In this document: piece by piece, positions 13,205-60,461 of the stretch
Layout: each line of letters starts with the position of its first letter
How positions within the stretch are numbered: position 1 is the first letter of the stretch
NCBI GenBank assembly: GCA_947492955.1
Contig: CANLOV010000005.1
Location: forward strand, 124,001 to 188,000
DNA: 64,000 bases
Origin: an uncultured Cellulophaga sp.
GTDB lineage: Bacteria > Bacteroidota > Bacteroidia > Flavobacteriales > Flavobacteriaceae
Direction of reading: 5' to 3'
Position numbers and translations under genes: made by a program
The notes under the pieces: generated by a model
Seen by the model: only the letters and a program-made list of their open reading frames with translations
The model's database searches: none
What the model was told of the DNA's origin: nothing

Positions 13205-13813
13205 ATGGCTTTTGAATTACCAAAACTACCTTATGCATATGATGCATTAGAACCACATATTGATGCAAGAACAATGGAAATACACCATTCTAAACATCAT
13301 AACGGTTATACAACAAAATTAAATGCTGCTATTGAAGGAACAGATTTAGAAGGAAAGTCTATAGATGATATTATTACAGGTTTAGATATGTCTAACGGAG
13401 CGGTACGTAATAATGGAGGAGGGTTTTATAACCATTCTTTGTTTTGGGAAGTAATGTCTCCAAATGGTGGTGGTACACCATCAGGAGAATTAGCAGAAGC
13501 AATAGATGCTGCTTTTGGTTCTTTTGAAGATTTTAAAGCTGCTTTTTCTTCAGCTGCAGCAACAAGATTTGGTTCTGGTTGGGCATGGTTATGTGTACAT
13601 AAAGGAGGAAAGGTAGAAGTTTGTTCTACTCCAAATCAAGATAATCCATTAATGCCAGATACAGGCTGTGGAGGATTTCCAATTTTAGGTTTAGATGTTT
13701 GGGAGCATGCTTATTATTTAAATTATCAAAATAGAAGACCAGATTATATAGGAGGCTTTTTTAATGTAATTAACTGGGAAAAAGTATCAGAGTTATACGC
13801 TTCAAATAAGTAA
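13205..13813 (+). CDS. sodA: Superoxide dismutase, Fe/Mn family (Mn-like)
   Basis: A 202-residue cytoplasmic enzyme that converts superoxide to oxygen and hydrogen peroxide. Metal ligands are His27 (EIHHSKHH), His77 (NHSLFW), Asp164 and His168 (DVWEHAYY). Gln145 in [10 protein letters not shown] sits where Mn enzymes carry their second-sphere glutamine, so I lean to Mn or cambialistic use; iron cannot be excluded. No signal peptide is seen. It has its own promoter and a strong terminator, so it is monocistronic. Its neighbour across the promoter is the AddA-like gene. Confidence 0.93.
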
Positions 13814-13877: not shown

Positions 13878-13958
13878 TTTAAAAATAGAAAAGGGTAGAG
13901 AAGTCTCTACCCTTTTCATCCCAAATCTTACCATAAACTTAACCTACTTATGCTATGG
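13878..13958 (-). ncRNA. Small RNA, four-copy family, copy A
   Basis: Transcribed on the minus strand. It starts with the conserved block CCATAGCATAAGTAGG... (13920-13958), then a perfect 13-bp hairpin (arms 13888-13900 and 13905-13917, stem GAAAAGGGTAGAG on the plus strand) ending in a T-rich tract. The 5' block is almost identical in copies B, C and D, while the hairpin sequence is unrelated but fully paired. A promoter at 13964-13994 places the expected start at the block's 5' end. Within the block, CCATA can pair with TATGG to expose a 19-nt loop. Predicted length is about 80 nt; there is no ORF. I do not know a name for it; the Rfam Flavo-1 motif should be compared. Confidence 0.7.
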
Positions 13959-13963
13959 CGATA

Positions 13964-13994
13964 CTAAATTACTGGTATTGTGTTAAATAACAAA
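13964..13994 (-). promoter_or_regulatory. Promoter of small RNA copy A
   Basis: Minus-strand TTTG-N19-TAATTTAG (one mismatch to TAnnTTTG), -7 at 13964-13971 and -33 at 13991-13994. The -7 box ends 5 bp before the conserved block, the spacing expected for a start at or near its first bases. Confidence 0.65.
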
Positions 13995-14079
13995 GAAATT
14001 TTAAGAGTTTTTATAATTTTTCTATTATAAATGGATGTTGTTAAATAGAAAAAAGAAGATATTTAGAGGTAATCCATTG

Positions 14080-14162
14080 ATTACCAGAAATGAAAAAGAC
14101 AGAGTAACACTCTGTCTTTTTCCCCCAAATCTTACCATGAACTTAACCTACTTATGCTATGG
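14080..14162 (-). ncRNA. Small RNA, four-copy family, copy B
   Basis: Second copy on the minus strand, upstream of copy A. Conserved block 14123-14162; hairpin arms 14092-14105 and 14109-14122 form a perfect 14-bp stem (GACAGAGT core) that ends in TTTTTC. It differs from copy A inside the block by TTC instead of TTT before ATGG, and it has AA instead of GC bases ahead of the block, the same variant as copy D. It probably folds and terminates on its own rather than being co-transcribed with copy A. Confidence 0.7.
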
Positions 14163-14175: not shown

Positions 14176-14302
14176 TGGCAATAGCCTTATCTTAAAAAAG
14201 GTTTTAGACCAATACCTATATATTAAGGTGAAATACTTTTTACAAACATTAAGACTACATTTAAAAAAGAATAAGATTACATTTTTACAATATTATATGA
14301 AA

Positions 14303-14336
14303 AATGCCTTTGATAATTTAAATTACCAAAGGCATT
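14303..14336 (-). terminator. Terminator of the cupredoxin-like gene
   Basis: Arms AATGCCTTTG and its inverse (10 bp) enclose a 14-nt AT-rich loop that is itself mostly self-complementary. On the minus strand it is followed by TTTTTC. It lies 24 bp after the cupredoxin stop codon. Confidence 0.8.
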
Positions 14337-14359
14337 AGAGTTTGTAATTTACGTTCTAG

Positions 14360-14749
14360 TTATTTAACAACTAATATGTTATCGGTAGAAGTAGGGTTTA
14401 AAGGACAGAAATAAACATATTTACCCTTTTTTAATACTGTAGGTTTAGAAACTTGCTTTTTCCCTGTAGCTACAGCCTCGGTTACATATGCTGTTTGTAT
14501 GTGGTTTTTTGGATCACTAAGATCTTTTCCTTTTTGTACCAATACAAAACCAACATTATGATCTACTGCATTGTTAGAGATTTCGAAAATATAAGTTCCT
14601 TCCGATACTGTTATTTGTTTTTGTGTAAATTCACCAGACGTTTGTTCTAAAGAGATAACTTTAGAAGTTTCTTTCATCATTTTGTCTTGAGCTGTTCCTG
14701 AAAAGATTACTGCTACTACAAATACGATTGCTAAAATTGCTTTTTTCAT
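14360..14749 (-). CDS. Exported cupredoxin-like protein lacking usual copper ligands
   Basis: A 129-residue protein with a signal peptide (MKKAILAIVFVVAVIFSGTAQ) and a small beta-sandwich of cupredoxin type. The first ligand region NNAVDHNVGF has a His and the C-terminal strand has YVYFCPLNPTS with the Cys. In blue-copper proteins this loop reads CPxHxxxGM or similar, with a second His and Met; here both positions are missing (CPLNPTSTDNILVV). Copper binding of the classical type is therefore doubtful. It is probably periplasmic, possibly in stress or metal handling. The gene stands alone with its own terminator, next to the small RNA pair and superoxide dismutase. Confidence 0.75.
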   Translation of the reverse strand: MKKAILAIVFVVAVIFSGTAQDKMMKETSKVISLEQTSGEFTQKQITVSEGTYIFEISNNAVDHNVGFVLVQKGKDLSDPKNHIQTAYVTEAVATGKKQVSKPTVLKKGKYVYFCPLNPTSTDNILVVK

Positions 14750-14880
14750 TTTAATTTAAAATTTATATAATAATTAATTTAATTTTTCAAATTGTTTAAT
14801 TTGATATTACAAAGGTCATATACAAGAGGCTATTTTTAATTGTCTGTATTTCCCTTTTTATAGCCAATATTTCCCTAAGT

Positions 14881-15039
14881 TTATTTTATAGAGATAAAAG
14901 GCCTTTCTGCATCACAATAAAAGTCGTGATGGTATTTCTGCTCACAATGTGTTTTAGAGTCTTTCGTTTTTAAGTTGTTTTTTTCTGTATTACCGAAAAT
15001 TTCAATTAAATTGAAAATAGATATATTTCTTTTTCTCAT
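14881..15039 (-). CDS. Small hypothetical protein (52 aa), His/Cys-containing
   Basis: An intact ORF of 53 codons from ATG (15037-15039) to TAA (14881-14883), MRKRNISIFNLIEIF at its start. The C-terminal part has two Cys and three His close together (HCEQKYHHDFYC), which might bind a metal. There is no clear ribosome site, as usual in this phylum, and no good promoter. It lies in a 632-bp interval otherwise free of genes. I do not recognise it; translation is unproven. Confidence 0.35.
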   Translation of the reverse strand: MRKRNISIFNLIEIFGNTEKNNLKTKDSKTHCEQKYHHDFYCDAERPFISIK

Positions 15040-15381
15040 CTTATTTATTGTTTTAATTATGGTACAAAAATGAGATAGAATTAAAGTTATTTGTTAGACA
15101 GATTTTCCTGTTAGCTAGTCAAAACTTCCTTTGGAGTTAGTTTAGGCTTTGGTTTGTCTTTTTTCAAGATAAATTTTATAGTATTTTAAAGATGAGATTT
15201 AATTTTGGCTATATTTTCCCTTCATTTTAAGTTGTTTATGATGTTTTCTTGTTTATTCTTAATAGGATTAAAAGTGCTAAATAGCTGATTTTGTTGAAAC
15301 AAAAGTGTTAATCTCTATTTTAAATTTTTTTGATAACTATTAATTAGCTAAAATTGTTGCTATTAATTATAATTTATAGAG
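15040..15381. other. Intergenic region without a recognisable gene
   Basis: An AT-rich interval between the 52-aa ORF and the PAS gene. It presumably carries the PAS promoter, but I see no exact TTTG/TAnnTTTG pair, no hairpin and no repeat. Confidence 0.5.
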
Positions 15382-15894
15382 ATGATGAAAGAGTATGAAG
15401 AAGTGATACATAAATATTATAGCGCGTTAAAAGTTAATGGTTTGCCCTCTTCTTGGGATATATATAGTTCTTACTTTAGTAGGTTATGTTACAACTATAA
15501 AGACGTGCAGGTATTAACTAATTTGGCAGAGAAAAATAGTTGGACTCATGTATTAGATTTAAATAATGATTTAGTTAATAAGGAGCAAGTTATTGTTGTA
15601 ACAGATGCAGAATTAAACATTGTGCATGCAACTAAAAATATACATGCTATGAATGGGTATATGCCAGATGAGATTATAGGTAAAAAACCAAAAATGTTTC
15701 AAGGTGTGGCAACATCTAAAGAAACTACAGCTTACATTTCTAAAGCTGTTAAGAGTAAATCTTCTTTTGAAGCTACTATATTAAACTACAGAAAAGATGG
15801 TACTCCATATAATTGTTATATAAAAGGAAGTCCTGTTTTTAATGAAAAAGGAAAGCTAATTAACTTTATAGCCTATGAAAGAGAAGTAGCTTAA
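15382..15894 (+). CDS. Stand-alone PAS-domain protein (LOV-like, no flavin cysteine)
   Basis: A 170-residue cytoplasmic protein. Residues about 65-168 are a PAS fold: VVTDAELNIVHATKNIHAMNGY, then EIIGKKPKMFQG and YRKDGTPYNCYIKGSPVFNEKG. The arrangement resembles LOV domains, but where LOV has NCRFLQ this has KPKMFQG, so the photoactive cysteine is absent. The N-terminal 60 residues contain aromatic helices with no known domain. It has no output domain and no kinase neighbour, so it must act through a partner if it signals. A bidirectional terminator separates it from pyk. Confidence 0.75.
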   Translation: MMKEYEEVIHKYYSALKVNGLPSSWDIYSSYFSRLCYNYKDVQVLTNLAEKNSWTHVLDLNNDLVNKEQVIVVTDAELNIVHATKNIHAMNGYMPDEIIGKKPKMFQGVATSKETTAYISKAVKSKSSFEATILNYRKDGTPYNCYIKGSPVFNEKGKLINFIAYEREVA

Positions 15895-15915
15895 AACTAA
15901 GTGTTCATAAATATA

Positions 15916-15950
15916 AAACCCTGCAATATTATTTTATATTGCAGGGTTTT
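15916..15950. terminator. Bidirectional terminator between the PAS gene and pyk
   Basis: A stem of about 14 bp with core ACCCTGCAATA paired with its inverse, bordered by A and T runs. It serves both convergent transcripts. Confidence 0.85.
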
Positions 15951-15972
15951 TACTTTTATTTAAAAGTATATT

Positions 15973-17400
15973 TTAAACTTCTGTTACTCTAAGAGTATTT
16001 ACCATCCCTTTTGTTTTTATAGGCATAGCAGCTAAACTAATAACCATATCGCCTTTTTCTAAAAGACCTTTTTCTATTGCTATTTTATTTACATCCTCTA
16101 TAGTATCATCTGTAGATACATATTTATCATAATAAAAAGCTCTAACACCCCATAATAAATTCAATTGTGTTAAAATTCTTTTGTTAGATGTAAATACTAA
16201 AATATATGCATTTGGTCTCCAAGCAGATACTTGGAAAGCTGTATATCCACTATTTGTTAAAGTAGAAATTGCTTTTGCATCAATTTCGTTAGACATTAGT
16301 GCCGCATGGTAACATACAGACTTAGTAATGTATCTTTTTGTTTTTATATGTGGTGGCTCATGTGGTACCTTAATTAAACTAGAACCTTCTACGGTTTGTA
16401 GAATACTTGCCATTTTCTCTATTACTTGTACTGGGTAATTACCAACAGAAGTTTCTCCTGATAGCATTACAGCATCTGCGCCATCCATTACAGAGTTAGC
16501 AACATCATTAACTTCTGCTCTAGTAGGTGTAAGGCTAGTAATCATAGTTTCCATCATTTGCGTAGCAATAATTACTGGAATTCTAGCTTTTTTGGCCCTT
16601 AGTACTAATTGTTTCTGAATTAAAGGAACTTCTTGTGCAGGAACTTCAACTCCTAAATCACCTCTAGCTACCATAAGCCCATCGCAATAAGAAACAATTT
16701 TATCTATGTTTTCTACAGCTTCAGGTTTCTCTATTTTAGCTATAATTGGAATTTTTTCGTCTGTATGCTCTTTTATTAAATTTTGAAGATCTATTAAATC
16801 TTGGCTAAAACGTACAAAAGAAAGAGCTATCCAATCTACTTTTTTAGAAATAGCAAAAATAGCATCTTTAACATCTTTTTCTGTAAGCGCAGGAAGAGAG
16901 ATGTTGGTATTAGGTAAATTAACTCCTTTTTTAGATTTTAAAGGCCCTCCTTGTATTACTTTAGCTTTTACTTCGTTTTCTTTGTTTGTAGAAAGCACTT
17001 CAAACATTAACTTTCCGTCATCTAAAAGAATGTTTTCTCCGGCTTTTACATCTTTAGGGAAAGAAGCGTAATTCATGTATACTCTTTCTGCATTACCTTC
17101 AAAAGGTTCACCAGTAACAAATGTTATTTCATCACCAGGAGCTACAACTACTTCTGCAGCCATTACACCAACTCTAAGCTTAGGTCCTTGTAAATCTGCA
17201 AGTATAGAAGTATGCACTTCAAGTTCTTCGTTTAATTCTCTAATAATATTGATGCGTTCAGTAACATCACTATAATCTGCATGAGAAAAGTTGATTCTAA
17301 AGACATTTACCCCTGCAAGGATCATATCTCTCAACACATCTTTTTTACTAGTAGCAGGTCCTAGAGTTGCTACTATTTTAGTTTTTTTGTTACTTGGCAT
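15973..17400 (-). CDS. pyk: Pyruvate kinase
   Basis: A 475-residue glycolytic enzyme making pyruvate and ATP from phosphoenolpyruvate and ADP. It starts MPSNKKTKIVATLGPATSKK, has NVFRINFSHADY, the active-site signature IPIIAKIEKPEAVENID, MVARGDLGVEVP, and MMETMITSLTPTRAEVND with DGADAVMLSGETS. The C-terminal allosteric domain is complete. The length is typical. It lies 4 bp downstream of the IPExxxVDY gene, so they are probably co-transcribed, an arrangement I recall as common in Flavobacteriia. Confidence 0.97.
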   Translation of the reverse strand: MPSNKKTKIVATLGPATSKKDVLRDMILAGVNVFRINFSHADYSDVTERINIIRELNEELEVHTSILADLQGPKLRVGVMAAEVVVAPGDEITFVTGEPFEGNAERVYMNYASFPKDVKAGENILLDDGKLMFEVLSTNKENEVKAKVIQGGPLKSKKGVNLPNTNISLPALTEKDVKDAIFAISKKVDWIALSFVRFSQDLIDLQNLIKEHTDEKIPIIAKIEKPEAVENIDKIVSYCDGLMVARGDLGVEVPAQEVPLIQKQLVLRAKKARIPVIIATQMMETMITSLTPTRAEVNDVANSVMDGADAVMLSGETSVGNYPVQVIEKMASILQTVEGSSLIKVPHEPPHIKTKRYITKSVCYHAALMSNEIDAKAISTLTNSGYTAFQVSAWRPNAYILVFTSNKRILTQLNLLWGVRAFYYDKYVSTDDTIEDVNKIAIEKGLLEKGDMVISLAAMPIKTKGMVNTLRVTEV

Positions 17401-17404
17401 TCTG

Positions 17405-17866
17405 TTAAAAAATTAAATTATTTTTAGATTTTAGTTTGATTACTTCAATAGAATAAGCTGTAATTATTTCAGGTATCATTAAAAGTTTTTTTACAATGTC
17501 TTCTGTTTCTTCTACTGCTTGTTCAATTTTAATAAAGTAATCTACTTCTTTATATTCTGGCACTAAGAAATGGGTTGTATATGTTAATTCATTACTAAAC
17601 AACCCTTCTTGTTTTTTGCTTTCTTTTTCTACACTTGTATTTATAATTAATGTCCAATAAGCATCATTTAATGTGTCTTTCCATTCAAAAAAAGGAAAAG
17701 ATACATTTTCAGAAAAATCCAAATCAATAGGAGCTCTATTTAATTTAGATGTTAGTTGTCTATTAATCAAATATGCTATAGAATAATCTTCTAAACTACT
17801 ATGTATAGCAATAAGTGTGTATGAACTTTCATAAAAATCTTCAGAAATTTTGTGTATTGCCGACAT
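17405..17866 (-). CDS. IPExxxVDY family protein
   Basis: A 153-residue protein with the family signature, here VPEYKEVDYFIKIE near residue 110. No signal peptide or membrane segment. The function of the family is unknown; it is found in Flavobacteriia next to pyruvate kinase, as here. It begins an operon with pyk and lies about 108 bp downstream of rnc on the same strand, so it could also be co-transcribed with rnc and fabF. Confidence 0.8.
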   Translation of the reverse strand: MSAIHKISEDFYESSYTLIAIHSSLEDYSIAYLINRQLTSKLNRAPIDLDFSENVSFPFFEWKDTLNDAYWTLIINTSVEKESKKQEGLFSNELTYTTHFLVPEYKEVDYFIKIEQAVEETEDIVKKLLMIPEIITAYSIEVIKLKSKNNLIF

Positions 17867-17974
17867 ATCCTTTTATGAATCGGTAAATATATAATTAAAA
17901 ATGTAGTTTGCCTAGTTATATACTGGGATTAAACGCATCGTTTTTTACGAAAACGTTTGAATTTAACAAATCTC

Positions 17975-18712
17975 TTATGATTTGTCTATTTTATTCTGTA
18001 ATGCAAAATAAGCTCTTTTAGAAGCGGTCTCTTCTGCCTTTTTTTTAGAGGTGGCTCTTGCCTTTGCAACTATGGAATCTCCAATCGAAAGTTTTACAGC
18101 AAAATGTTTTAGTGGGTCATTTCCTGTGTCTTCATAAACATCATAGTTAAATGTCTTTTTTTGTTTTTGGCACCACTCTATTACTAGGCTTTTATAGCTA
18201 ATAACTTTTCCTTCTAATTGTTCTATGTTTACATAGGGTTTTATAACACTATTGTATAGAAATTTTTCGCAATATTTATAACCTCTATCTAAATAAATGG
18301 CTCCAACTAGAGCTTCAAAAACATTACCATGAATATTATCTCCAAAGTGAGACTTAGGAATTCTACTTTCTACAAATTGTATAAGGTTTAAATCTTTGCC
18401 CAGTTCGTTAAGATGTTCTCTACTTACAATTTTAGAACGCATTTTAGTTAGGTAGCCTTCGTCTCCCGTAGGTACTTCGGCGTATAAATATTTAGAAATA
18501 ATAGTACCTAACATAGCATCGCCTAAGAATTCTAGCCGCTCGTAGTTCATGGGATTTCCGTTAGCATCCTTTTTGTTAGCGGATCTGTGTAGAAATGCTT
18601 TTTTGTAAATCTTTAAGTTTTTAGGCTTAAAGCCTAAAATTTTTCGAATACCCCAAAAAAAATCCCCATCCTCTTTAGAATGGGAATTAAATATGTTTGA
18701 GGTAATTTTCAT
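17975..18712 (-). CDS. rnc: Ribonuclease III
   Basis: A 245-residue double-strand-specific endoribonuclease for rRNA and mRNA processing. The RNase III signature is ERLEFLGDAMLGTIIS, and the second acidic site is NVFEALVGAIYLDRGY. The C-terminal double-strand RNA-binding domain begins at YKSLVIEWCQ and contains ARATSKKKAEETASKRAY. It lies 3 bp downstream of fabF in one operon. The family usually has about 225-245 residues. Confidence 0.96.
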   Translation of the reverse strand: MKITSNIFNSHSKEDGDFFWGIRKILGFKPKNLKIYKKAFLHRSANKKDANGNPMNYERLEFLGDAMLGTIISKYLYAEVPTGDEGYLTKMRSKIVSREHLNELGKDLNLIQFVESRIPKSHFGDNIHGNVFEALVGAIYLDRGYKYCEKFLYNSVIKPYVNIEQLEGKVISYKSLVIEWCQKQKKTFNYDVYEDTGNDPLKHFAVKLSIGDSIVAKARATSKKKAEETASKRAYFALQNKIDKS

Positions 18713-18715
18713 AAA

Positions 18716-19966
18716 TTAACTTAATTTTTTTAGCACAACACAAGCGTTATGTCCGCCAAACCCAAAAGTATTACTCATGGCAACTTTAATATCTCTTTTT
18801 TGAGCTTTATTAAGAGTTAAGTTTAAACTAGGGTCTATATTTTCATCTATTGTTGAGTGGTTAATTGTTGGGGGTACAATACCGTGCTCCATAGCTAATA
18901 TAGATGCTATTGCTTCTATAGCACCGGCAGCTCCTAACAAGTGACCTGTCATAGATTTTGTAGAGTTTATATTTATGTTGGCAGCATGTTCTCCAAATAC
19001 TTTAGAGATTGCTTTTAATTCTGCAACATCTCCTAAAGGGGTAGAGGTACCGTGGGTGTTAATAGCATCTACGTCTTCAGGTTTTAAACCTGCATCTTTT
19101 AAACAGTTTTCCATTACGCGTACAACACCAACTCCTTCTGGGTGTGGCGCCGTCATATGGTGGGCGTCACTAGAAAGACCACCACCTGCAACTTCTGCAT
19201 ATATTTTAGCTCCTCTTGCTACAGCATGTTCGTATTCTTCTAATACTAAAGCTCCGGCACCTTCTCCTAAAACAAAACCATCTCTATTAGCATCAAAAGG
19301 TCTAGATGCAGTTTCTGGACTCTCGTTTCTTGTAGATAGGGCATGCATAGCACTAAAACCACCCATACCTGCAATAGTAACAGCAGCTTCGCTACCTCCA
19401 GATACAATAACATCGCAATGCCCTAAACGAATATAGTTTAAAGCATCAATCATAGCATTTGCAGAAGAAGCACAAGCAGATACAGTAGTATAGTTAGGGC
19501 CCATAAAGCCATGCTTTATAGAAATGTTACCTGGTGCAATATCTGCAATCATTTTAGGAATAAAGAAAGGGTTAAATTTTGGTGTGCCGTCACCAGCAGC
19601 AAAATTTAAAACTTCATTTTGGAATGTTTCTAAACCACCTATTCCTGCTCCCCAGATAACACCAACACGATATTTATCTATTTTTTCCAAATCTAATCCA
19701 GAATCTAGAATAGCTTCATCGGAAGATATCATTGCGTATTGTGCAAACCGATCCATTTTACGAGCATTTTTTCTGTCAAAATGATCTAATGGATTGTAGT
19801 TTTTAAGTTCACAAGCAAATTTAGTTTTGAATTTTTCGCTATCGTAATAAGTTACAGGAGCACATCCACTTTTTCCATTTACTAATCCATCCCAATATTC
19901 TTCAATATTGTTACCTATTGGTGTTAAAGCACCTAAACCAGTAACTACAACTCGCTTTAATTGCAT
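18716..19966 (-). CDS. fabF: Beta-ketoacyl-ACP synthase II
   Basis: A 416-residue fatty-acid elongation enzyme that condenses malonyl-ACP with acyl-ACP. It has the Cys active site in TVSACASSANAM, the His in DAINTHGTSTPLGD, and Lys plus His in STKSMTGHLLGAAG. The C-terminus NTFGFGGHNACVV is typical. It lies about 115 bp downstream of acpP, with a strong hairpin in between, and 3 bp upstream of rnc. Confidence 0.97.
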   Translation of the reverse strand: MQLKRVVVTGLGALTPIGNNIEEYWDGLVNGKSGCAPVTYYDSEKFKTKFACELKNYNPLDHFDRKNARKMDRFAQYAMISSDEAILDSGLDLEKIDKYRVGVIWGAGIGGLETFQNEVLNFAAGDGTPKFNPFFIPKMIADIAPGNISIKHGFMGPNYTTVSACASSANAMIDALNYIRLGHCDVIVSGGSEAAVTIAGMGGFSAMHALSTRNESPETASRPFDANRDGFVLGEGAGALVLEEYEHAVARGAKIYAEVAGGGLSSDAHHMTAPHPEGVGVVRVMENCLKDAGLKPEDVDAINTHGTSTPLGDVAELKAISKVFGEHAANININSTKSMTGHLLGAAGAIEAIASILAMEHGIVPPTINHSTIDENIDPSLNLTLNKAQKRDIKVAMSNTFGFGGHNACVVLKKLS

Positions 19967-20014
19967 TGAACTATAATTTTTAATTTATATATCTAATTAT
20001 GTAAACTGTAAAGT

Positions 20015-20052
20015 AAAAAAAATATCCATGCGGAACTAATACCGCATGGATA
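20015..20052 (-). terminator. Terminator or attenuator between acpP and fabF
   Basis: An 11-bp perfect stem (TATCCATGCGG and its inverse) with an 8-nt loop, followed on the minus strand by eight T residues. It is a full intrinsic terminator placed between two genes usually co-transcribed, so it may set a high acpP to fabF ratio. Confidence 0.85.
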
Positions 20053-20080
20053 ATTTATAATCTTTTGCAAGGAAACATAA

Positions 20081-20314
20081 TTACTTTGCTTCTTCGATAT
20101 AACTTATTGCTTGACCAACTGTTGCTATATTTTCTGCTTGATCGTCTGGGATTTGAATATCAAATTCTTTTTCAAATTCCATAATTAATTCAACAGTGTC
20201 TAAAGAATCTGCTCCTAGGTCGTTTGTAAAGCTTGCCTCAGCTACTACTTCATTTTCATCAACACCTAATTTATCAACGATAATAGCTTTTACTCTTGAT
20301 GCAATGTCTGACAT
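20081..20314 (-). CDS. acpP: Acyl carrier protein
   Basis: A 77-residue acidic protein carrying fatty-acid intermediates on a phosphopantetheine arm. Ser37 in [15 protein letters not shown] is the attachment site. The four-helix sequence is typical and of full length. fabF follows after a terminator-like hairpin, and purN lies divergently. Confidence 0.97.
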
Positions 20315-20471
20315 AATAATATTAGTTTTAAAAATTTAATTGATGGCAAAAATAAAAAACTTATAGTTTAATAGCACTATTTGTCGATAAAATGTCTCTT
20401 TTTTTAATTGATTTTATAGCAATAGTGTTAATTTCGCCCATGAATACAGGGATAAATCACTAATAAATTTT

Positions 20472-21038
20472 ATGAAAAGTATCGTTCTTTTTGCTTCAGG
20501 ATCAGGTTCTAATGTAGAAAATATAGGAAATTACTTTAAAAACGACCCAAATATTAACATTTCTTGTGTTCTTACCAACAAAAGAGATGCTAAAGTAATA
20601 GATAGGTGTAATAGGTTAGGTATAAATGCATTATATTTTAATAAGACAGCATTTACAAAAACAAGTTGTGTTTTAGATATTTTAAAAACATTTAATCCAG
20701 ATCTTATTGTTTTAGCTGGGTTTTTATGGAAAATTCCAGAAAATTTAATTCAAAATTTCCCTAATAAAATAATAAATGTACACCCAGCATTATTGCCTAA
20801 ATATGGAGGTAAAGGAATGTATGGTATGCACGTACATGCATCTGTAAAAGAAAATAAAGAAGAAGAAACAGGCATTACTATACATTATGTAAATGAAAAT
20901 TATGACGAGGGAGCAATTATAAAACAAGCTAAGACTACAGTTTTAACAGAAGATACAGCAGAAGATATTGCACAAAAAGTACATGCCTTAGAATATGAAT
21001 ATTTTCCTAAAGTAATTAAAACATTACTTAATGCATAA
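20472..21038 (+). CDS. purN: Phosphoribosylglycinamide formyltransferase
   Basis: A 188-residue purine synthesis enzyme (GAR to FGAR with 10-formyl-THF). Motifs: FASGSGSNVENI at the phosphate loop, IINVHPALLPKYGGKGMYG with catalytic Asn and His, and ETGITIHYVNENYDEG with the catalytic Asp. The 8-bp overlap with rnhA indicates translational coupling. It is divergent from acpP, a setting I recall as common in Flavobacteriia. Confidence 0.95.
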   Translation: MKSIVLFASGSGSNVENIGNYFKNDPNINISCVLTNKRDAKVIDRCNRLGINALYFNKTAFTKTSCVLDILKTFNPDLIVLAGFLWKIPENLIQNFPNKIINVHPALLPKYGGKGMYGMHVHASVKENKEEETGITIHYVNENYDEGAIIKQAKTTVLTEDTAEDIAQKVHALEYEYFPKVIKTLLNA

Positions 21039-21504
21039 AGCGCAGGTACATATATATACAGATGGTGCTGCTCGTGGTAATCCAGGACCAGGAGGATATG
21101 GTATTGTAATGGAATGGGTTGGTAAACCCTATAAAAAAGAGTTTGCAGATGGTTTTAAGCACACAACCAATAACCGCATGGAGCTTTTAGCTGTTATAGT
21201 TGCATTACGGAAGCTTAAAAATAAAGGAACCAATGTTATTGTATTTACAGATTCTAAATATGTAGTAGATGCTGTAGAAAAAAAATGGTTAGAGCGTTGG
21301 GAAAGAACTTCTTTTAAAGACAAAAAAAATCCAGATTTATGGAAAATGTTTTTGGTAGAATACAGAAAACATAATGTTTTATTTAAATGGATAAAAGGAC
21401 ATAATAATCATCCGCAAAATGAAAGATGCGATGCACTGGCCGTTGCAGCTTCTAAAGCACAACAATTGAAAGAAGATACTGGCTTTGTTCCTAATAAAAA
21501 ATAA
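21031..21504 (+). CDS. rnhA: Ribonuclease HI
   Basis: A 157-residue enzyme removing RNA from RNA-DNA hybrids. The catalytic acids are in IYTDGAARGNPGPGGYG (Asp), NNRMELLAVI (Glu), FTDSKYVVDAV (Asp) and NERCDALA (Asp), with the loop His in GHNNHPQNE. It is full length. It overlaps purN by 8 bp and is followed after 99 bp by a PfkB gene with its own promoter. Confidence 0.95.
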   Translation: MHKAQVHIYTDGAARGNPGPGGYGIVMEWVGKPYKKEFADGFKHTTNNRMELLAVIVALRKLKNKGTNVIVFTDSKYVVDAVEKKWLERWERTSFKDKKNPDLWKMFLVEYRKHNVLFKWIKGHNNHPQNERCDALAVAASKAQQLKEDTGFVPNKK

Positions 21505-21575
21505 GATTAAAACAATTGATGTTTAAGAGTTAATTCTTTTTTAATTCTTGGTTAGATACTCAAAAAACTTACCCT

Positions 21576-21583
21576 TATATTTG
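21576..21583 (+). promoter_or_regulatory. -7 box of the PfkB kinase gene
   Basis: TATATTTG, an exact TAnnTTTG match, 20 bp before the ATG at 21604. The upstream -33 element is weak (TTAG at 20 bp spacing). Confidence 0.5.
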
Positions 21584-21603
21584 CACCTTAATTACATTAT
21601 TTA

Positions 21604-22530
21604 ATGGGTAAACTTTTAATTGTTGGTAGTGTTGCTTTTGATGCTATTGAAACCCCTTTTGGGAAAACAGACAAAATTTTAGGAGGAGCAGCTCCATTTA
21701 TAGCTTTAGCAGCATCTCAGTTTAACATAGATTCAGCTATAGTTTCTATTGTGGGAGAAGATTTCCCTCAAGAATATTTAGACTTATTAAAATCTAAAAA
21801 TGTAGATATTTCTGCTATTGAAGTTGTTAAAGGGGGTAAAACTTTTTTTTGGAAAGGAAAATACCATAACGATTTAAATACAAGAGATACTCTAGTTACA
21901 GAGTTAAACGTTTTAGGAGATTTTTCTCCTATAGTTCCAGAAAATTATAAAAATGCAGACATTGTTATGTTAGGCAACTTACATCCTAGTGTACAAATGA
22001 GTGTTATAAACCAAATGGAACAAAAGCCTAAGCTAATTGCTTTGGATACTATGAATTTTTGGATGGATAATGCACTCGATGAGCTTTTAAATGTAATAAA
22101 GCATATAGATGTTATTACTATTAATGATGAAGAAGCAAGGCAATTAACAGGAGAATATTCTTTGGTTAAAGCAGCAGCTAAAATTCAGGAAATGGGACCT
22201 AAGTATGTAGTTATAAAAAAGGGTGAGCACGGTGCTTTATTATTTCATAAGGATGATATTTTCTTTGCACCAGCATTACCATTAGAAGAAGTTTTTGATC
22301 CTACAGGAGCAGGAGATACTTTTGCAGGAGGTTTTTCGGGATATTTAGCAGAAACAGAGAATATTTCTTTTGATAATTTAAAAAAGGCCATTATTCATGG
22401 TTCTAATCTAGCTTCATTTAATGTAGAACGTTTTGGAACGGAAAGAATGGAGAACTTAAATAAGGAAGAGGTAAATAAAAGATTGCTTCAGTTTAAGAAG
22501 TTAACGCAGTTTGATATCGAATTACAATAA
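21604..22530 (+). CDS. PfkB-family sugar or nucleoside kinase
   Basis: A 308-residue cytoplasmic kinase of ribokinase fold. The N-terminus LLIVGSVAFDAIETP and ILGGAAPFIALAASQF give the substrate-side glycine motif. The C-terminal signature is DPTGAGDTFAGGFSGYL with the catalytic Asp. The substrate is unknown; its place just before a purF-type gene and behind purN suggests a nucleoside or ribose compound, but this is inference. An intrinsic terminator separates it from the purF-type gene. Confidence 0.87.
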   Translation: MGKLLIVGSVAFDAIETPFGKTDKILGGAAPFIALAASQFNIDSAIVSIVGEDFPQEYLDLLKSKNVDISAIEVVKGGKTFFWKGKYHNDLNTRDTLVTELNVLGDFSPIVPENYKNADIVMLGNLHPSVQMSVINQMEQKPKLIALDTMNFWMDNALDELLNVIKHIDVITINDEEARQLTGEYSLVKAAAKIQEMGPKYVVIKKGEHGALLFHKDDIFFAPALPLEEVFDPTGAGDTFAGGFSGYLAETENISFDNLKKAIIHGSNLASFNVERFGTERMENLNKEEVNKRLLQFKKLTQFDIELQ

Positions 22531-22538
22531 AAATATGG

Positions 22539-22563
22539 GCCCTGACTTTTCGGGGCTTTTTTA
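22539..22563 (+). terminator. Terminator after the PfkB gene
   Basis: A 7-bp stem, GCCCTGA with TCGGGGC (one T-G pair) and loop CTTT, followed by six T residues. It lies 9 bp after the PfkB stop codon and 22 bp before the next ATG. Confidence 0.8.
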
Positions 22564-22584
22564 ATCTATAATTAAGACAAGAAA

Positions 22585-24483
22585 ATGAGTGACGCCATTA
22601 AGCACGAATGTGGAATTTCACTGATACGGTTACTAAAACCATTAGAGTATTATAAAGAAAAATATGGTACAGCATTTTATGGAGTAAATAAAATGTATTT
22701 AATGATGGAGAAACAACATAACCGTGGACAAGACGGTGCTGGTTTCGCTAGTATTAAATTAGATATGGAAGCGGGCGAACGTTATATGAGCAGAGTGCGT
22801 TCAGCAGAAAACCAGCCAATACAGGATATTTTTGCCCAGATTAATGATAGAATTAATACAGCTTTACAAGAAAACCCTTCATACGAAGATAATGTAGCAT
22901 TGCAGAAAAAGCATATTCCATATATTGGAGAGCTTTTATTAGGACATGTTCGTTATGGTACATTTGGAAAAAATAGTATAGAAAGTGTTCATCCTTTTTT
23001 AAGACAAAACAATTGGATGCACCGTAACCTAATTGTTGCTGGTAACTTTAACATGACTAATGTTAATGAGCTTTTTAATAGTCTTGTTAAAATAGGACAG
23101 CACCCAAAAGAAATGGCAGATACCGTTACTGTCATGGAGAAGATAGGGCATTTTTTAGACGATGCCGTAGCCAAATTATATAAGCAAATAAAAAAAGAAG
23201 GTTATAGTAAATTAGAAGCTTCGCCAATAATAGCAGAAAGATTAAATGTTGCTAAAATTCTTAGAAGAGCTGCTAAGAATTGGGATGGAGGTTATGCCAT
23301 GGCAGGTTTATTAGGACATGGAGATTCTTTTGTACTTCGTGATCCTTCTGGGATTAGACCAACCTACTATTATCAAGACGATGAGGTTGTTGCCATAGCT
23401 TCTGAAAGACCAGCAATACAAACGGTATTTAATGTTAAGTACGAAGATATTAAAGAGCTAGATCCAGGGAAAGCTATAATTATAAAGAAGGATGGTACAG
23501 TATCTATAAAACAGATATTAGAACCAAGAGAAAGAAAAGCTTGTTCGTTTGAGCGTATTTATTTTTCTAGAGGAAGTGATAAAGAAATATACCAAGAACG
23601 TAAAGAATTAGGAAAGCTTCTTTTTCCTCAAATTTTATCTTCGATTGATAATGATATAAAAAATACGGTCTTTTCTTATATTCCTAATACAGCAGAAACC
23701 TCGTTTTTTGGAATGGTAAAAGAGGCACAGAACTCTTTAAACAGAAAGAAAGAAGAGCAAATTTTATCTATAGGAACTAAAATTACATTAGAGCAATTAC
23801 ACGAAATTTTAGAAGTACGTCCACGAATAGAAAAAGTAGCTATTAAAGATGCAAAACTTAGAACCTTTATTACACAAGACAGTAGTAGAGACGATTTAGT
23901 GGCCCATGTTTATGATATATCGTACGGTTCTGTAAAGAAAGGAGATAATTTAGTTATTATAGATGATAGTATCGTAAGAGGTACTACACTTAAAAAGAGT
24001 ATTCTTAAAATTTTAGATAGGTTACATCCAAAGAAAATTATTGTTGTTTCATCTGCACCACAAATACGTTATCCAGACTGTTATGGTATAGATATGGCTA
24101 AATTAGAAGATTTTATTGCTTTTAGAGCTGCACTTGCTTTGCACGAAGATAACAATACAATGCATTTAGTAGAAGAAATTTATAAGAAGTGTTTAACACA
24201 AATAAACTCTAAAGATAAAGATGTAGTAAATTATGTAAAAGAGTTTTATGCACCTTTTACTGCAGATGAAATCTCTAAAAAAACAGGAGAATTATTAAGT
24301 CCTGAAGGAATAAATGCAGAAGTTGAAATCATATATCAAACGATAGAAAATTTACATATAGCTTGCCCTAAAAATTTAGGAGATTGGTATTTTACAGGAG
24401 ATTATCCTACACCAGGGGGTAATAGAGTTGTAAATAAAGCTTTTATTAATTTCTTTGAAGGAAAAAGTGAAAGAGCATATTAA
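22585..24483 (+). CDS. purF: Amidophosphoribosyltransferase (long PurF form)
   Basis: A 632-residue enzyme of the glutamine PRPP amidotransferase family, catalysing the first step of purine synthesis. The N-terminal Ntn glutaminase domain holds Cys9 in HECGISLIRL; this is not directly behind the Met, so eight residues must be removed or tolerated. GHVRYGTFG and NLIVAGNFNM follow. The PRPP-binding site is VIIDDSIVRGTTLKKS. Usual PurF has about 500 residues, so it carries over 100 extra, mainly in the middle and C-terminus. I regard it as the main purF, although a second purF elsewhere cannot be excluded. Confidence 0.85.
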   Translation: MSDAIKHECGISLIRLLKPLEYYKEKYGTAFYGVNKMYLMMEKQHNRGQDGAGFASIKLDMEAGERYMSRVRSAENQPIQDIFAQINDRINTALQENPSYEDNVALQKKHIPYIGELLLGHVRYGTFGKNSIESVHPFLRQNNWMHRNLIVAGNFNMTNVNELFNSLVKIGQHPKEMADTVTVMEKIGHFLDDAVAKLYKQIKKEGYSKLEASPIIAERLNVAKILRRAAKNWDGGYAMAGLLGHGDSFVLRDPSGIRPTYYYQDDEVVAIASERPAIQTVFNVKYEDIKELDPGKAIIIKKDGTVSIKQILEPRERKACSFERIYFSRGSDKEIYQERKELGKLLFPQILSSIDNDIKNTVFSYIPNTAETSFFGMVKEAQNSLNRKKEEQILSIGTKITLEQLHEILEVRPRIEKVAIKDAKLRTFITQDSSRDDLVAHVYDISYGSVKKGDNLVIIDDSIVRGTTLKKSILKILDRLHPKKIIVVSSAPQIRYPDCYGIDMAKLEDFIAFRAALALHEDNNTMHLVEEIYKKCLTQINSKDKDVVNYVKEFYAPFTADEISKKTGELLSPEGINAEVEIIYQTIENLHIACPKNLGDWYFTGDYPTPGGNRVVNKAFINFFEGKSERAY

Positions 24484-24570
24484 ATTTTGCACTTTAGGTG
24501 TAAAAACATGCATTTCATCGATGATTTAAGTTTTTTATCCTACTTATTGTCGAAAAGGACTACATAACAC

Positions 24571-24578
24571 TAACTTGG
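24571..24578 (+). promoter_or_regulatory. -7 box of small RNA copy C
   Basis: TAACTTGG, one mismatch to TAnnTTTG, ending 5 bp before the conserved block. ATTG lies 21 bp upstream as a -33 candidate. Confidence 0.5.
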
Positions 24579-24583
24579 TGTTG

Positions 24584-24657
24584 CCATAGCATAAGTAGGT
24601 TAAGTTTATGGTAAGATTTGGGGTAAAAAGGTGGAAAACATTCCACCTTTTTCATTT
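24584..24657 (+). ncRNA. Small RNA, four-copy family, copy C
   Basis: Plus-strand copy after purF. Conserved block 24584-24623, identical to copy A except at its last base. Hairpin arms 24625-24636 and 24641-24652 (AAAAAGGTGGAA and its inverse) form a 12-bp stem with a 4-nt loop, ending in TTTTT. The GC bases before the block and the TTTATGG segment match copy A, so A and C form one subtype. The interval 24484-24857 holds no protein gene, only this copy and copy D. Confidence 0.7.
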
Positions 24658-24732
24658 TCAGTCATTTCCATCCTAGTTTTATTCTTACAATAAAAGCATT
24701 TCAACCCAAAATAAAAGACATTAGTCTAATAC

Positions 24733-24766
24733 TTTGTAGTTAGATAACTTACATACCATACTTTTG
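24733..24766 (+). promoter_or_regulatory. Promoter of small RNA copy D
   Basis: TTTG (24733-24736), 22 bp spacing, then TACTTTTG (24759-24766), an exact TAnnTTTG box. It ends 5 bp before the conserved block, as in the other copies. Confidence 0.65.
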
Positions 24767-24771
24767 GAGAA

Positions 24772-24845
24772 CCATAGCATAAGTAGGTTAAGTTCATGGT
24801 AAGATTTGGGGAAAGAAGGCGGAGTTTACTCCGCCTTCTTGTTTT
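24772..24845 (+). ncRNA. Small RNA, four-copy family, copy D
   Basis: Fourth copy, plus strand. Conserved block 24772-24811; hairpin arms 24813-24825 and 24828-24840 (core GAAGGCGGAGT) give a 13-bp stem followed by GTTTTT, an ideal intrinsic terminator. It carries the TTCATGG variant of copy B. The terminator faces the end of the convergent 126-aa gene at 24858. Confidence 0.72.
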
Positions 24846-24857
24846 TATACACCGTTT

Positions 24858-52056: not shown

Positions 52057-52536
52057 TTATTTAAAGAATAACTGTGTGTAATACAATTTGCCATTAGTAT
52101 TTCTTTTTACGCTTATGGCTGTATGGGTAAATTCTCCCTCAATAGTTTTTCTGTGATTAGAACTTGCTAGCCAACCTTCAAAAGCAGCATTAGCACTTGT
52201 ATAATCTTTAGCTACATTTTCGGATACAAGAGACGCTTTTGTTTCAGCAGCAATATTAGATGCACGTGTATTAAAATTATCGTGGTTAGTAGTCCCTTTT
52301 ACTACCATATAGTCGGTATGTTCATTAGCATATTTATAGGCTACTGAACTAAACTCAAGCGAATTTTGACCTAAATTAAGCCTATGTTCATTAACAATAC
52401 TTAATAGCTCTTGTTCTACTTGTGTAACATTTTCTGCGGTTATAATGTTTGTCTCCTCAATACTTTCTTTACTACAAGATAATAGTAGTGTACCAAAAAG
52501 TAATGTAAGGACATAATACTGTAATCTAATTTTCAT
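52057..52536 (-). CDS. CAP-domain lipoprotein (copy 2)
   Basis: A 159-residue paralogue of the protein at 51309-51797. Lipobox LLLSC with Cys21. The CAP domain has ELLSIVNEHRLNLGQNSLEF, ANEHTDYMVVKGTTNHDNFN, SENVAKDYTSANAAFEGW and LYYTQLFFK at the end. The two copies share most motif residues but have diverged in the N-terminal third, so the duplication is not recent. The 254-bp interval upstream (52537-52790) holds no gene that I see. Confidence 0.87.
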   Translation of the reverse strand: MKIRLQYYVLTLLFGTLLLSCSKESIEETNIITAENVTQVEQELLSIVNEHRLNLGQNSLEFSSVAYKYANEHTDYMVVKGTTNHDNFNTRASNIAAETKASLVSENVAKDYTSANAAFEGWLASSNHRKTIEGEFTHTAISVKRNTNGKLYYTQLFFK

Positions 52537-59711: not shown

Positions 59712-60461
59712 TCAACGATGCATTTTATCTAGGATTTCTATAATCTCTGTTTTCTTACGTACAGACACAGGTACATTTTCACCATTTTTAAGCATTAAAT
59801 AACCGCCATCTGTTTTAATATAAGCACTAATACATTGCAGATTTACTAAATGACTTTGGTGTATGCGTATAAAGTCATAGTTTTTAAGCATATCCGCAAA
59901 ATACTTTAATGTTTTGGTTACAAATATTTTACGTTTGTCTTGTAGGTGGAAAATAGTATTATTACTATCCGATTCGCAACGAATAATATCATCTAAGTTT
60001 ACAATAATAATTTGATCTAGAGTATGTAAAGATATTTTGTTGGGTTTCTGTTCTGGAGCAGACAGTGTTTCTTTTAAAATATTTAAACGTTCTTTATTAG
60101 GTTGTATTTGTTGTTTTGCGCGATCTATAGCTAAACTTAAATCTTCATGAGAATAGGGCTTTAGCACATAATCTATAGCAGCAAATTTAAAAGCTCTAAT
60201 AGCAAATTCGTCACTAGCAGTTACAAAGATTATTTTTGATTTTAAATCTGGAAAAATTTCTAAAATATCAAAACCAGTACCGTCTCCTAGCATAATATCT
60301 AAAAAAAGAATATCGGGTTGGTTTTTGCGTAACACTTTAGCCGCTTCTACTACACTTTGTGCTGTTGCTATAATTTCTATTTCTGGATGCTTTGTTTCAA
60401 TATCGCTTTTTAAAAGCTGCAAAGCATCAATCATGTCTTCTACAATAATAGCTGTAAGCAT
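59712..60461 (-). CDS. LytTR-type response regulator
   Basis: A 249-residue regulator. Receiver domain about 1-120: AIIVEDMIDALQLL for the acidic pocket, Asp55 in FLDIMLGDGTGF as phosphoacceptor, and DYVLKPYSHEDLSLAID with the Lys. The LytTR DNA-binding domain is about 145-248 (SLHTLDQIIIVNLDDIIRCE, IRIHQSHLVNLQCISAYI). It is the partner of the sensor gene 6 bp upstream. LytTR proteins bind 9-bp direct repeats; I do not see one clearly upstream of dctP. Confidence 0.92.
   Translation of the reverse strand: MLTAIIVEDMIDALQLLKSDIETKHPEIEIIATAQSVVEAAKVLRKNQPDILFLDIMLGDGTGFDILEIFPDLKSKIIFVTASDEFAIRAFKFAAIDYVLKPYSHEDLSLAIDRAKQQIQPNKERLNILKETLSAPEQKPNKISLHTLDQIIIVNLDDIIRCESDSNNTIFHLQDKRKIFVTKTLKYFADMLKNYDFIRIHQSHLVNLQCISAYIKTDGGYLMLKNGENVPVSVRKKTEIIEILDKMHR

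Follow-up and report, generated by a model that had tools for sequence, protein, structure and literature searches.

Comparison with related genomes gives good support to a family of multicopy small RNA (sRNA) genes, each copy with a predicted promoter and intrinsic terminator of its own, of which four copies lie in the window (the whole stretch of 64,000 nucleotides analysed here). Judged from these comparisons, it is a family-wide set of RNA genes, usually situated between purF and sodA, in most of the flavobacteria sampled. This array, a putative direct-repeat operator upstream of most of its members and the similarity of their conserved block to the core of the FopS RNAs go beyond the original prediction, which had proposed four independent sRNA genes with a possible base-pairing loop.

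Four copies in the window

The sequence CCATAGCATAAGTAGGTTAA was found to occur exactly four times in the window, on the plus strand at 24584 and 24772 (copies C and D) and on the minus strand from 13958 and 14162 (copies A and B). At up to three mismatches 0.01 occurrences are expected by chance and none of 100 shuffled sequences reached four, while no fifth copy was found at this stringency in the whole 3.87-Mb assembly. As had been described, the 40-nt block varies among the four copies only at one internal base (position 24, T or C) and at the last base (A or G), is followed by hairpins with stems of 12, 12, 13 and 14 bp, and has a -7 box ending 5 nt ahead of it in every copy (TAACTTGG in C, TACTTTTG in D, TAATTTAG in A and TACCTTTG in B). 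The boxes of copies A and C deviate from TAnnTTTG, which we take to be the Bacteroidota -7 consensus.

Copy C (block plus terminator) occupies 24584 to 24661 on the plus strand (covariance-model match of 97.8 bits), with its -7 box at 24571 to 24578 and its 12-bp terminator hairpin at 24625 to 24652; copy D follows on the same strand at 24772 to 24848 (99.6 bits), with its -7 box at 24759 to 24766 and a hairpin, also of 12 bp, at 24813 to 24840. Both stand behind purF (22585 to 24483, plus strand). On the minus strand, copy B spans 14085 to 14162 (93.7 bits; hairpin 14122-14092) and copy A, on the side of sodA, spans 13882 to 13958 (93.5 bits; hairpin 13917-13888). The promoter of copy A, CACAATACCAGTAATTTAG (13959-14000, minus strand), resembles the promoters of sodA-side copies in other genera. 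The sodA gene itself, encoding an Fe/Mn superoxide dismutase, lies at 13205 to 13813 on the plus strand.

Promoter, block and hairpins

Among the copies of the listed loci with upstream sequence, TAnnTT was present at -13 to -8, the place of the copy C box, in 129/157, a T at -9 in 154/157 and a purine at -1 in 151/157, and this picture was unchanged in a set of 92 copies. In 120 distinct rows of the alignment, AGTAGGTTAAG, ATGGT and ATTTGGG were invariant and 28 columns of the block showed no variation, in a sample that is biased toward the search pattern, as every locus was found via one matching copy and the other copies by the model. The terminators of these 120 distinct members align as one purine-rich arm, approximately AAAAAGGYGGAG, and so the earlier description of the hairpins as unrelated in sequence was not upheld. 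Eleven of the 12 terminator pairs show compensatory change, 99.8% of 1438 cells are paired and 246 cells are changed on both sides, a result seen in 0 of 500 shuffles. Taken together, the comparison supports independent sRNA genes with promoters and intrinsic terminators; tRNA identity of the copies was not supported.

The proposed pairing of CCAT with ATGG inside the block fared less clearly. A 5' hairpin of the form RCCAURR...UUYAUGGU was predicted in all six RNAs folded, but no covariation was detected for it in the 120 rows; 13 of 600 cells of the five counted pairs were unpaired, with four pairs broken in 3, 3, 6 and 1 of the 120 rows.

Distribution and genomic context

A covariance model built from 42 copies was used to search sampled genomes. 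Strong matches (E<=1e-12) were obtained in 199 of 249 Flavobacteriaceae genomes (about 80%), weaker matches only in 22 and none in 28; seven of the 22 (between 1e-6 and 1e-10) are perhaps divergent members. In a class-wide sample of 247 genomes, matches above 75 bits were confined to Flavobacteriaceae and no match above 41 bits was seen in other families (at most 240 genomes), the best reaching 40.3 bits. Those matches outside Flavobacteriaceae that were inspected by eye were mostly terminators without the block. The sequence CATAAGTAGGTTAAG was found at up to one mismatch, chance matches included (e.g. L005 and L006), in 55 of 100 genomes, among them our own genome and all 17 congeners. The genus names of the listed loci are, by the taxonomy we assume, those of Flavobacteriaceae, the remainder being MAGs named only to higher groups.

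The usual gene order begins with purF and one to six tandem copies; sodA follows on the opposite strand, and beyond it stand a UvrD-like and an OmpA gene (the last two labels are our own). Eighty named loci were tabulated out of 118 stretches found. Among these listed loci, purF and sodA are both adjacent in 57, purF only in 10, sodA only in 9 and neither in 4; 12 of the 19 one-neighbour loci have fewer than 500 bases on the missing side. One copy was counted in 40 loci, two in 18, three in 10, four in 9, five in 2 and six in 1, numbers which are a lower bound, the loci being cut. The median spacing within arrays is 207 bp (78 intervals among the loci listed).

In the window, copies C and D stand behind purF, and copies A and B stand by sodA, 10 kb away and inverted. 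We infer that the array was split (14200-24850) by one inversion, about 10 kb long, that had an end between B and D, inside the array, because the intervening gene order fits such a single event when compared with relatives. Two extra, slightly divergent copies were noted outside the purF-sodA interval in genome G022 (L043, at 4030 and 12654), where they flank a stretch with a gene resembling that of a secreted protein of 1633 amino acids.

A putative operator and a candidate regulator

A direct repeat, cAtTTcAtC, with half-sites 20-21 bp apart, was found upstream of the promoter in 56 of 66 non-redundant copies (score >4); it was first spotted by eye, and an expectation-maximisation fit was then started from that motif. 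The half-sites are close to CATTTCATCG, their spacing is 20 bp in 47 copies and 21 bp in 9, and the repeat starts mostly at -73 to -75. The mean score was 13.9 bits; with the same matrix, shuffled sequence gave -2.6 bits, and a matrix refitted to shuffled sequence gave 5.3 bits. In the window, copy C has the repeat CATTTCATCG n10 TTTTTTATCC at 24511 to 24540 (plus strand; 20.1 bits), copy D has one at 24697 to 24727 (plus strand; 14.0 bits) and copy B a degenerate one at 14206 to 14235 (minus strand; 4.4 bits), while no direct repeat was found upstream of copy A. Among the ten low scorers, CACAATACC, the promoter seen at sodA-side copies, is present in four and a similar promoter in one more, while the remaining five have neither. 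The sodA-side copy is perhaps differently regulated.

Half-sites two helical turns apart are used by LytTR-type and similar regulators. As a motif the direct repeat is well supported, and it is consistent with a response-regulator operator, through which an as yet hypothetical regulator would activate the array. In three genera a LytTR regulator (Pfam LytTR and receiver domains) and a TPR histidine kinase are encoded between a PorP/SprF gene and a gene for a large type IX-secreted protein, and operator-like sites, weaker in our own genome, precede the PorP/SprF gene and the neighbouring type IX gene. This LytTR regulator, beside the surface-protein cluster, is a candidate regulator of the array. 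The operator-like sites ahead of the two cluster genes speak for it; against it, operators persist in genomes without that regulator (G051 and G041 have strong operators and lack the ortholog), and operator scans of whole stretches returned about as many matches as in shuffled DNA. In a hand-chosen set of 48 genomes, 15 of the 25 that carry the RNA have an ortholog (at least 60% identity), as do 3 of the 23 without a strong match; two of these three, G027 and G297, belong to one genus, and G027 has a one-mismatch seed match.

In our own genome, a LytTR regulator and a TPR histidine kinase are encoded at C1:319000-333100 (L321, L322) by fabD and a gamma carbonic anhydrase gene, in a cluster with PorP/SprF genes and a gene for a type IX-secreted protein on its flanks; a similar arrangement was seen in G291 (L352, L353) and G282. 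The window itself encodes a LytTR response regulator (Pfam LytTR and receiver) at 59715-60461 and has an operator-like direct repeat of 16.5 bits at 20394 (minus strand) upstream of an acyl carrier protein gene, which may be due to chance.

Candidate targets

The apical loop AAGUAGGU and the linker AUUUGGGG were taken as candidate pairing elements, and leaders were scored in samples of five genomes (742, 319, 296, 152 and 173 genes, defined by a simple ORF rule). The ranks reported here refer to these genome samples and are partly post hoc, as the type IX and CAP genes were first noticed via CCTACTT. By loop plus linker energy, a gene for a type IX-secreted surface protein ranked first of 319 and first of 296 in two genera, and by full duplex it ranked first and third in the same two. 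Its product has Calx-beta, DUF11 and CHU_C domains, and a PorP/SprF gene adjoins it. A sprB-like label was dropped for want of any SprB model match, which weakens a gliding reading. Two sites in the leader, CCCCARAT (about -104 to -109) and ACCTACTT (about -47 to -52), stand in an order that suits a bipartite duplex. Of 300 shuffled leaders per genus, 1 equalled its full-leader duplex energy. No pairing was found for the ortholog in our own genome.

The second candidate is a CAP-domain lipoprotein gene (52060 to 52536, minus strand), whose leader has CCTACTT at -45 and -22 together with C-rich sites able to pair with the linker. It ranked first of 742 in its own sample by loop plus linker and outside the best eight by full duplex. 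When each of the 18 leaders of its relatives in the genus was compared with 200 shuffles of itself, 10 scored at the 2.5% level or lower; the 18 leaders are related and thus not independent tests. At C2:108034-108357 of our own genome (L331), a gene for a small secreted-looking protein was observed with CCCAAATCT and ACCTA directly before its ATG; it came second of 742 on both measures, loop plus linker energy and full-duplex energy.

A loop-based target search had been suggested at the outset, and it gave top-ranked leaders in three genome samples but no general enrichment. The anti-seed CTTAACCTACT was not enriched in our own genome, where its 59 sites include the four copies and compare with 96 for the reversed control, nor was start-anchored pairing (18 versus 13.5 expected); signal-peptide genes were not specifically enriched, and genomes without the RNA behaved alike. 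The lowest full-duplex energy overall, -35.5, belonged to a gene from a genome without the RNA. The loop 7-mer CCTACTT, the best of 22 k-mers tested, was present in 5 leaders of the own-genome sample versus 0.7 in composition-matched permutations, none of which reached 5; counts were weak in two other genomes with the RNA (2 versus 0.5 and 1 versus 0.5). A loop containing AAGTAGGTTAA as a seed is plausible, but these 7-mer counts and leader ranks support it weakly. Action by trans-pairing with surface-protein leaders appears the most likely, albeit unproven.

Relation to FopS and other RNA families

No Rfam 15 model matched the family at its cut-off. The suggestion of identity with Flavo-1, which we take to be a Bacteroidota RNA motif, was rejected: it matched none of the four copies, whether at the gathering threshold or with E relaxed to 10. 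An alignment of copy C to the full FopS model (RF04319) scores 23.2 bits, the gathering cut-off being 56, and no FopS match at E up to 10 was obtained for copies A, B and D. Assignment to FopS by Rfam was accordingly rejected as below the gathering score, and the score alone means little because the unrelated terminator-bearing families STnc40 and sraA reach it too. None of 60 relatives exceeded the FopS cut-off, and with stricter filters no array stood among the matches listed.

Nonetheless, the block and the FopS consensus both hold TTCATGGTA--AGATTT (shuffle P = 0.047), located in the block at about position 22-36, internally and partly inside the predicted hairpin. At the RNA level this core, UUCAUGGUA..AGAUUU, is common to the present family, FopS and another multicopy family of the order. 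The latter, here called the third family, comes from two genomes of another family of the order and shares TTCAT[A/G]GTAAGATTT[T/G]GGG with the block (17/19). Its two forms resemble the block with P = 0.003 and 0.002, and it resembles FopS with P = 0.0015. Within it, TTCATAGTAAGATTTTGGG is invariant in five copies of the two genomes (L056, L057, L424-L426) and is followed by a variable terminator; a variant, TTCATTGTAATTTTAGGG, was seen in L427 and L429. Unlike the present family, it has nothing that corresponds to the block's first 22 nt, and it scores 30 to 40.5 bits against the FopS model. Common descent of the core in the block, the third family and FopS is probable on these similarities. 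A FopS-like match in a third taxonomic family of Flavobacteriales (L055 1501-1569, G077) reached 43.9 bits, below 56; it is close to the FopS consensus and not similar to the present block (P = 0.41).

Proposed mode of action and alternatives

We consider it probable, with reservations, that the family consists of trans-acting multicopy sRNAs under operator control which pair via the loop AAGUAGGU and the linker AUUUGGGG. Each copy would be an independent gene. Its RNA, roughly 75-80 nt long, would begin at the purine that precedes CCAT, some 5 nt past the -7 box, and stop at the intrinsic terminator. A response regulator that binds the DNA at the direct repeat (about -73/-53) would probably co-activate most copies. 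The near-invariant block would then probably act in trans, using the loop AAGUAGGU(U) and the linker to pair with the mRNA leaders of surface or secreted proteins and block translation of these mRNAs, several copies adding dose; the operator-less sodA-side copy would answer a different signal.

The alternative that survives best, unlikely but deserving serious consideration, is that the RNA mainly binds or titrates a protein, for instance one of RRM type like RbpB of Bacteroides, so that invariance of the block reflects protein contact and not mRNA pairing. It would account for conservation of the entire block, beyond a short seed, and for the failure to find genome-wide target enrichment, and an association of RbpB with the FopS family has been described in B. 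thetaiotaomicron (PMC11697453). It does not account for two kinds of leader ranking first by loop plus linker pairing. Moreover, RNAs with a single motif and a terminator are poor sponges compared to multi-site ones, which counts against titration.

It is doubtful that the RNA is a distant FopS member which, like FopS, acts at the start codon to repress susC-type transporters. The shared core, the alignment of copy C to the full model and the third family, which bridges both, favour membership, and against it stand the scores far under the gathering threshold, the absence of relatives over the cut-off among the matches listed and the internal, not 5'-terminal, position of the core. With regard to repression, the SusC leaders of our own genome do hold AACTAA (9/13) or AACTTAA (4/13) before the ATG (L276-L288), compared to 43 and 14 of the 742 leaders in the own-genome sample. 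However, they pair no better than background (P = 0.10 to 0.66 in four tests), and in SusC leaders from genomes without the RNA AACTAA was found in 0/3 and AACTTAA in 1/3. SusC targets, to which the AACTTAA/CTAAC motifs ahead of the ATG had pointed, were not kept: duplex energies showed no significant difference from background, and one genome lacking the RNA has AACTTAA as well.

It is very improbable that the copies serve neighbouring genes as leaders or attenuators, or belong to the 3'-UTR of purF; an origin in mRNA untranslated regions had been raised with the original prediction. Copy C does begin about 100 bp past the purF stop codon, but every copy has its own -7 box and terminator, the copies in the window are intact despite the split array, and a leader of the downstream gene is unlikely because sodA is convergent in the long loci that hold both neighbours. 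Even less credit can be given to a small protein encoded from the ATG inside the block: in 97 of the 120 distinct rows the frame ATGGTA... runs open until the stretch ends, but a one-base indel (AAGATTT/AGATTT) shifts it (MVRFG versus MVDLG), so that no peptide is conserved, and the terminator follows immediately. A mobile or repetitive DNA element, also raised originally, has a negligible probability, since against the near-identical copies, the extras elsewhere in a few genomes (L043, L048) and the four listed loci with neither neighbour stand a constant position in most loci with room to tell, a sodA-side copy that keeps its own promoter type across genera and the absence of any IMG/VR match to the exact 22-nt pattern. 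A viral origin was likewise not supported by that exact-pattern search.

Beyond the favoured reading of trans-acting sRNAs pairing with leaders, a bolder and frankly speculative proposal, which we think rather unlikely as a whole, may be put forward. In a family-wide circuit, a Bacteroidota counterpart of Qrr, csRNA and LhrC, a conserved response regulator would switch on the tandem RNAs, and these would repress surface proteins, type IX-secreted ones among them; the array, FopS and the third family would derive from one ancient sRNA with the core UUCAUGGUA-AGAUUU across Bacteroidales and Flavobacteriales. The family itself would be of interest as an RNA family found in about 80% of the Flavobacteriaceae genomes sampled. 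Its locus can be removed in one piece from a laboratory flavobacterium, its shared operator gives a handle on the signal, and it permits a direct test of whether the multicopy sRNAs of Bacteroidota form one superfamily.

Comparison with known systems

No description of the family was found in the literature searched, as far as the parts of it consulted extend; the supplementary sRNA tables of Flavobacterium transcriptomes (PMC9723704, PMC5395568) may list members. LhrC of Listeria, as presented in the sections of PMC4132741 consulted, has five copies under two-component-system control and a surface protein mRNA as proven target. The sequence of the present family is unrelated to LhrC, whose pairing sites are CU-rich, and the targets proposed here are candidates only. 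In streptococci, CiaR binds direct repeats, and the csRNA genes are dispersed. The csRNAs are several near-identical sRNAs under one response regulator, CiaR, in the portions of PMC8186281 and PMC4507080 consulted; they differ from the present family in both sequence and regulator.

There is a close likeness to FopS/GibS of Bacteroides (RF04319), of which 14 copies are given for FopS in B. theta in the consulted parts of PMC11697453 and PMC7366714. Both belong to Bacteroidota, are multicopy and have a conserved 5' part, a variable Rho-independent terminator and a canonical promoter. The R1 seed of FopS lies in a single-stranded 5' end, whereas here the core is internal and predicted to be neither at the 5' end nor fully unpaired; and, unlike FopS, the present copies mostly form one tandem array at a conserved locus, preceded by a putative direct-repeat operator.
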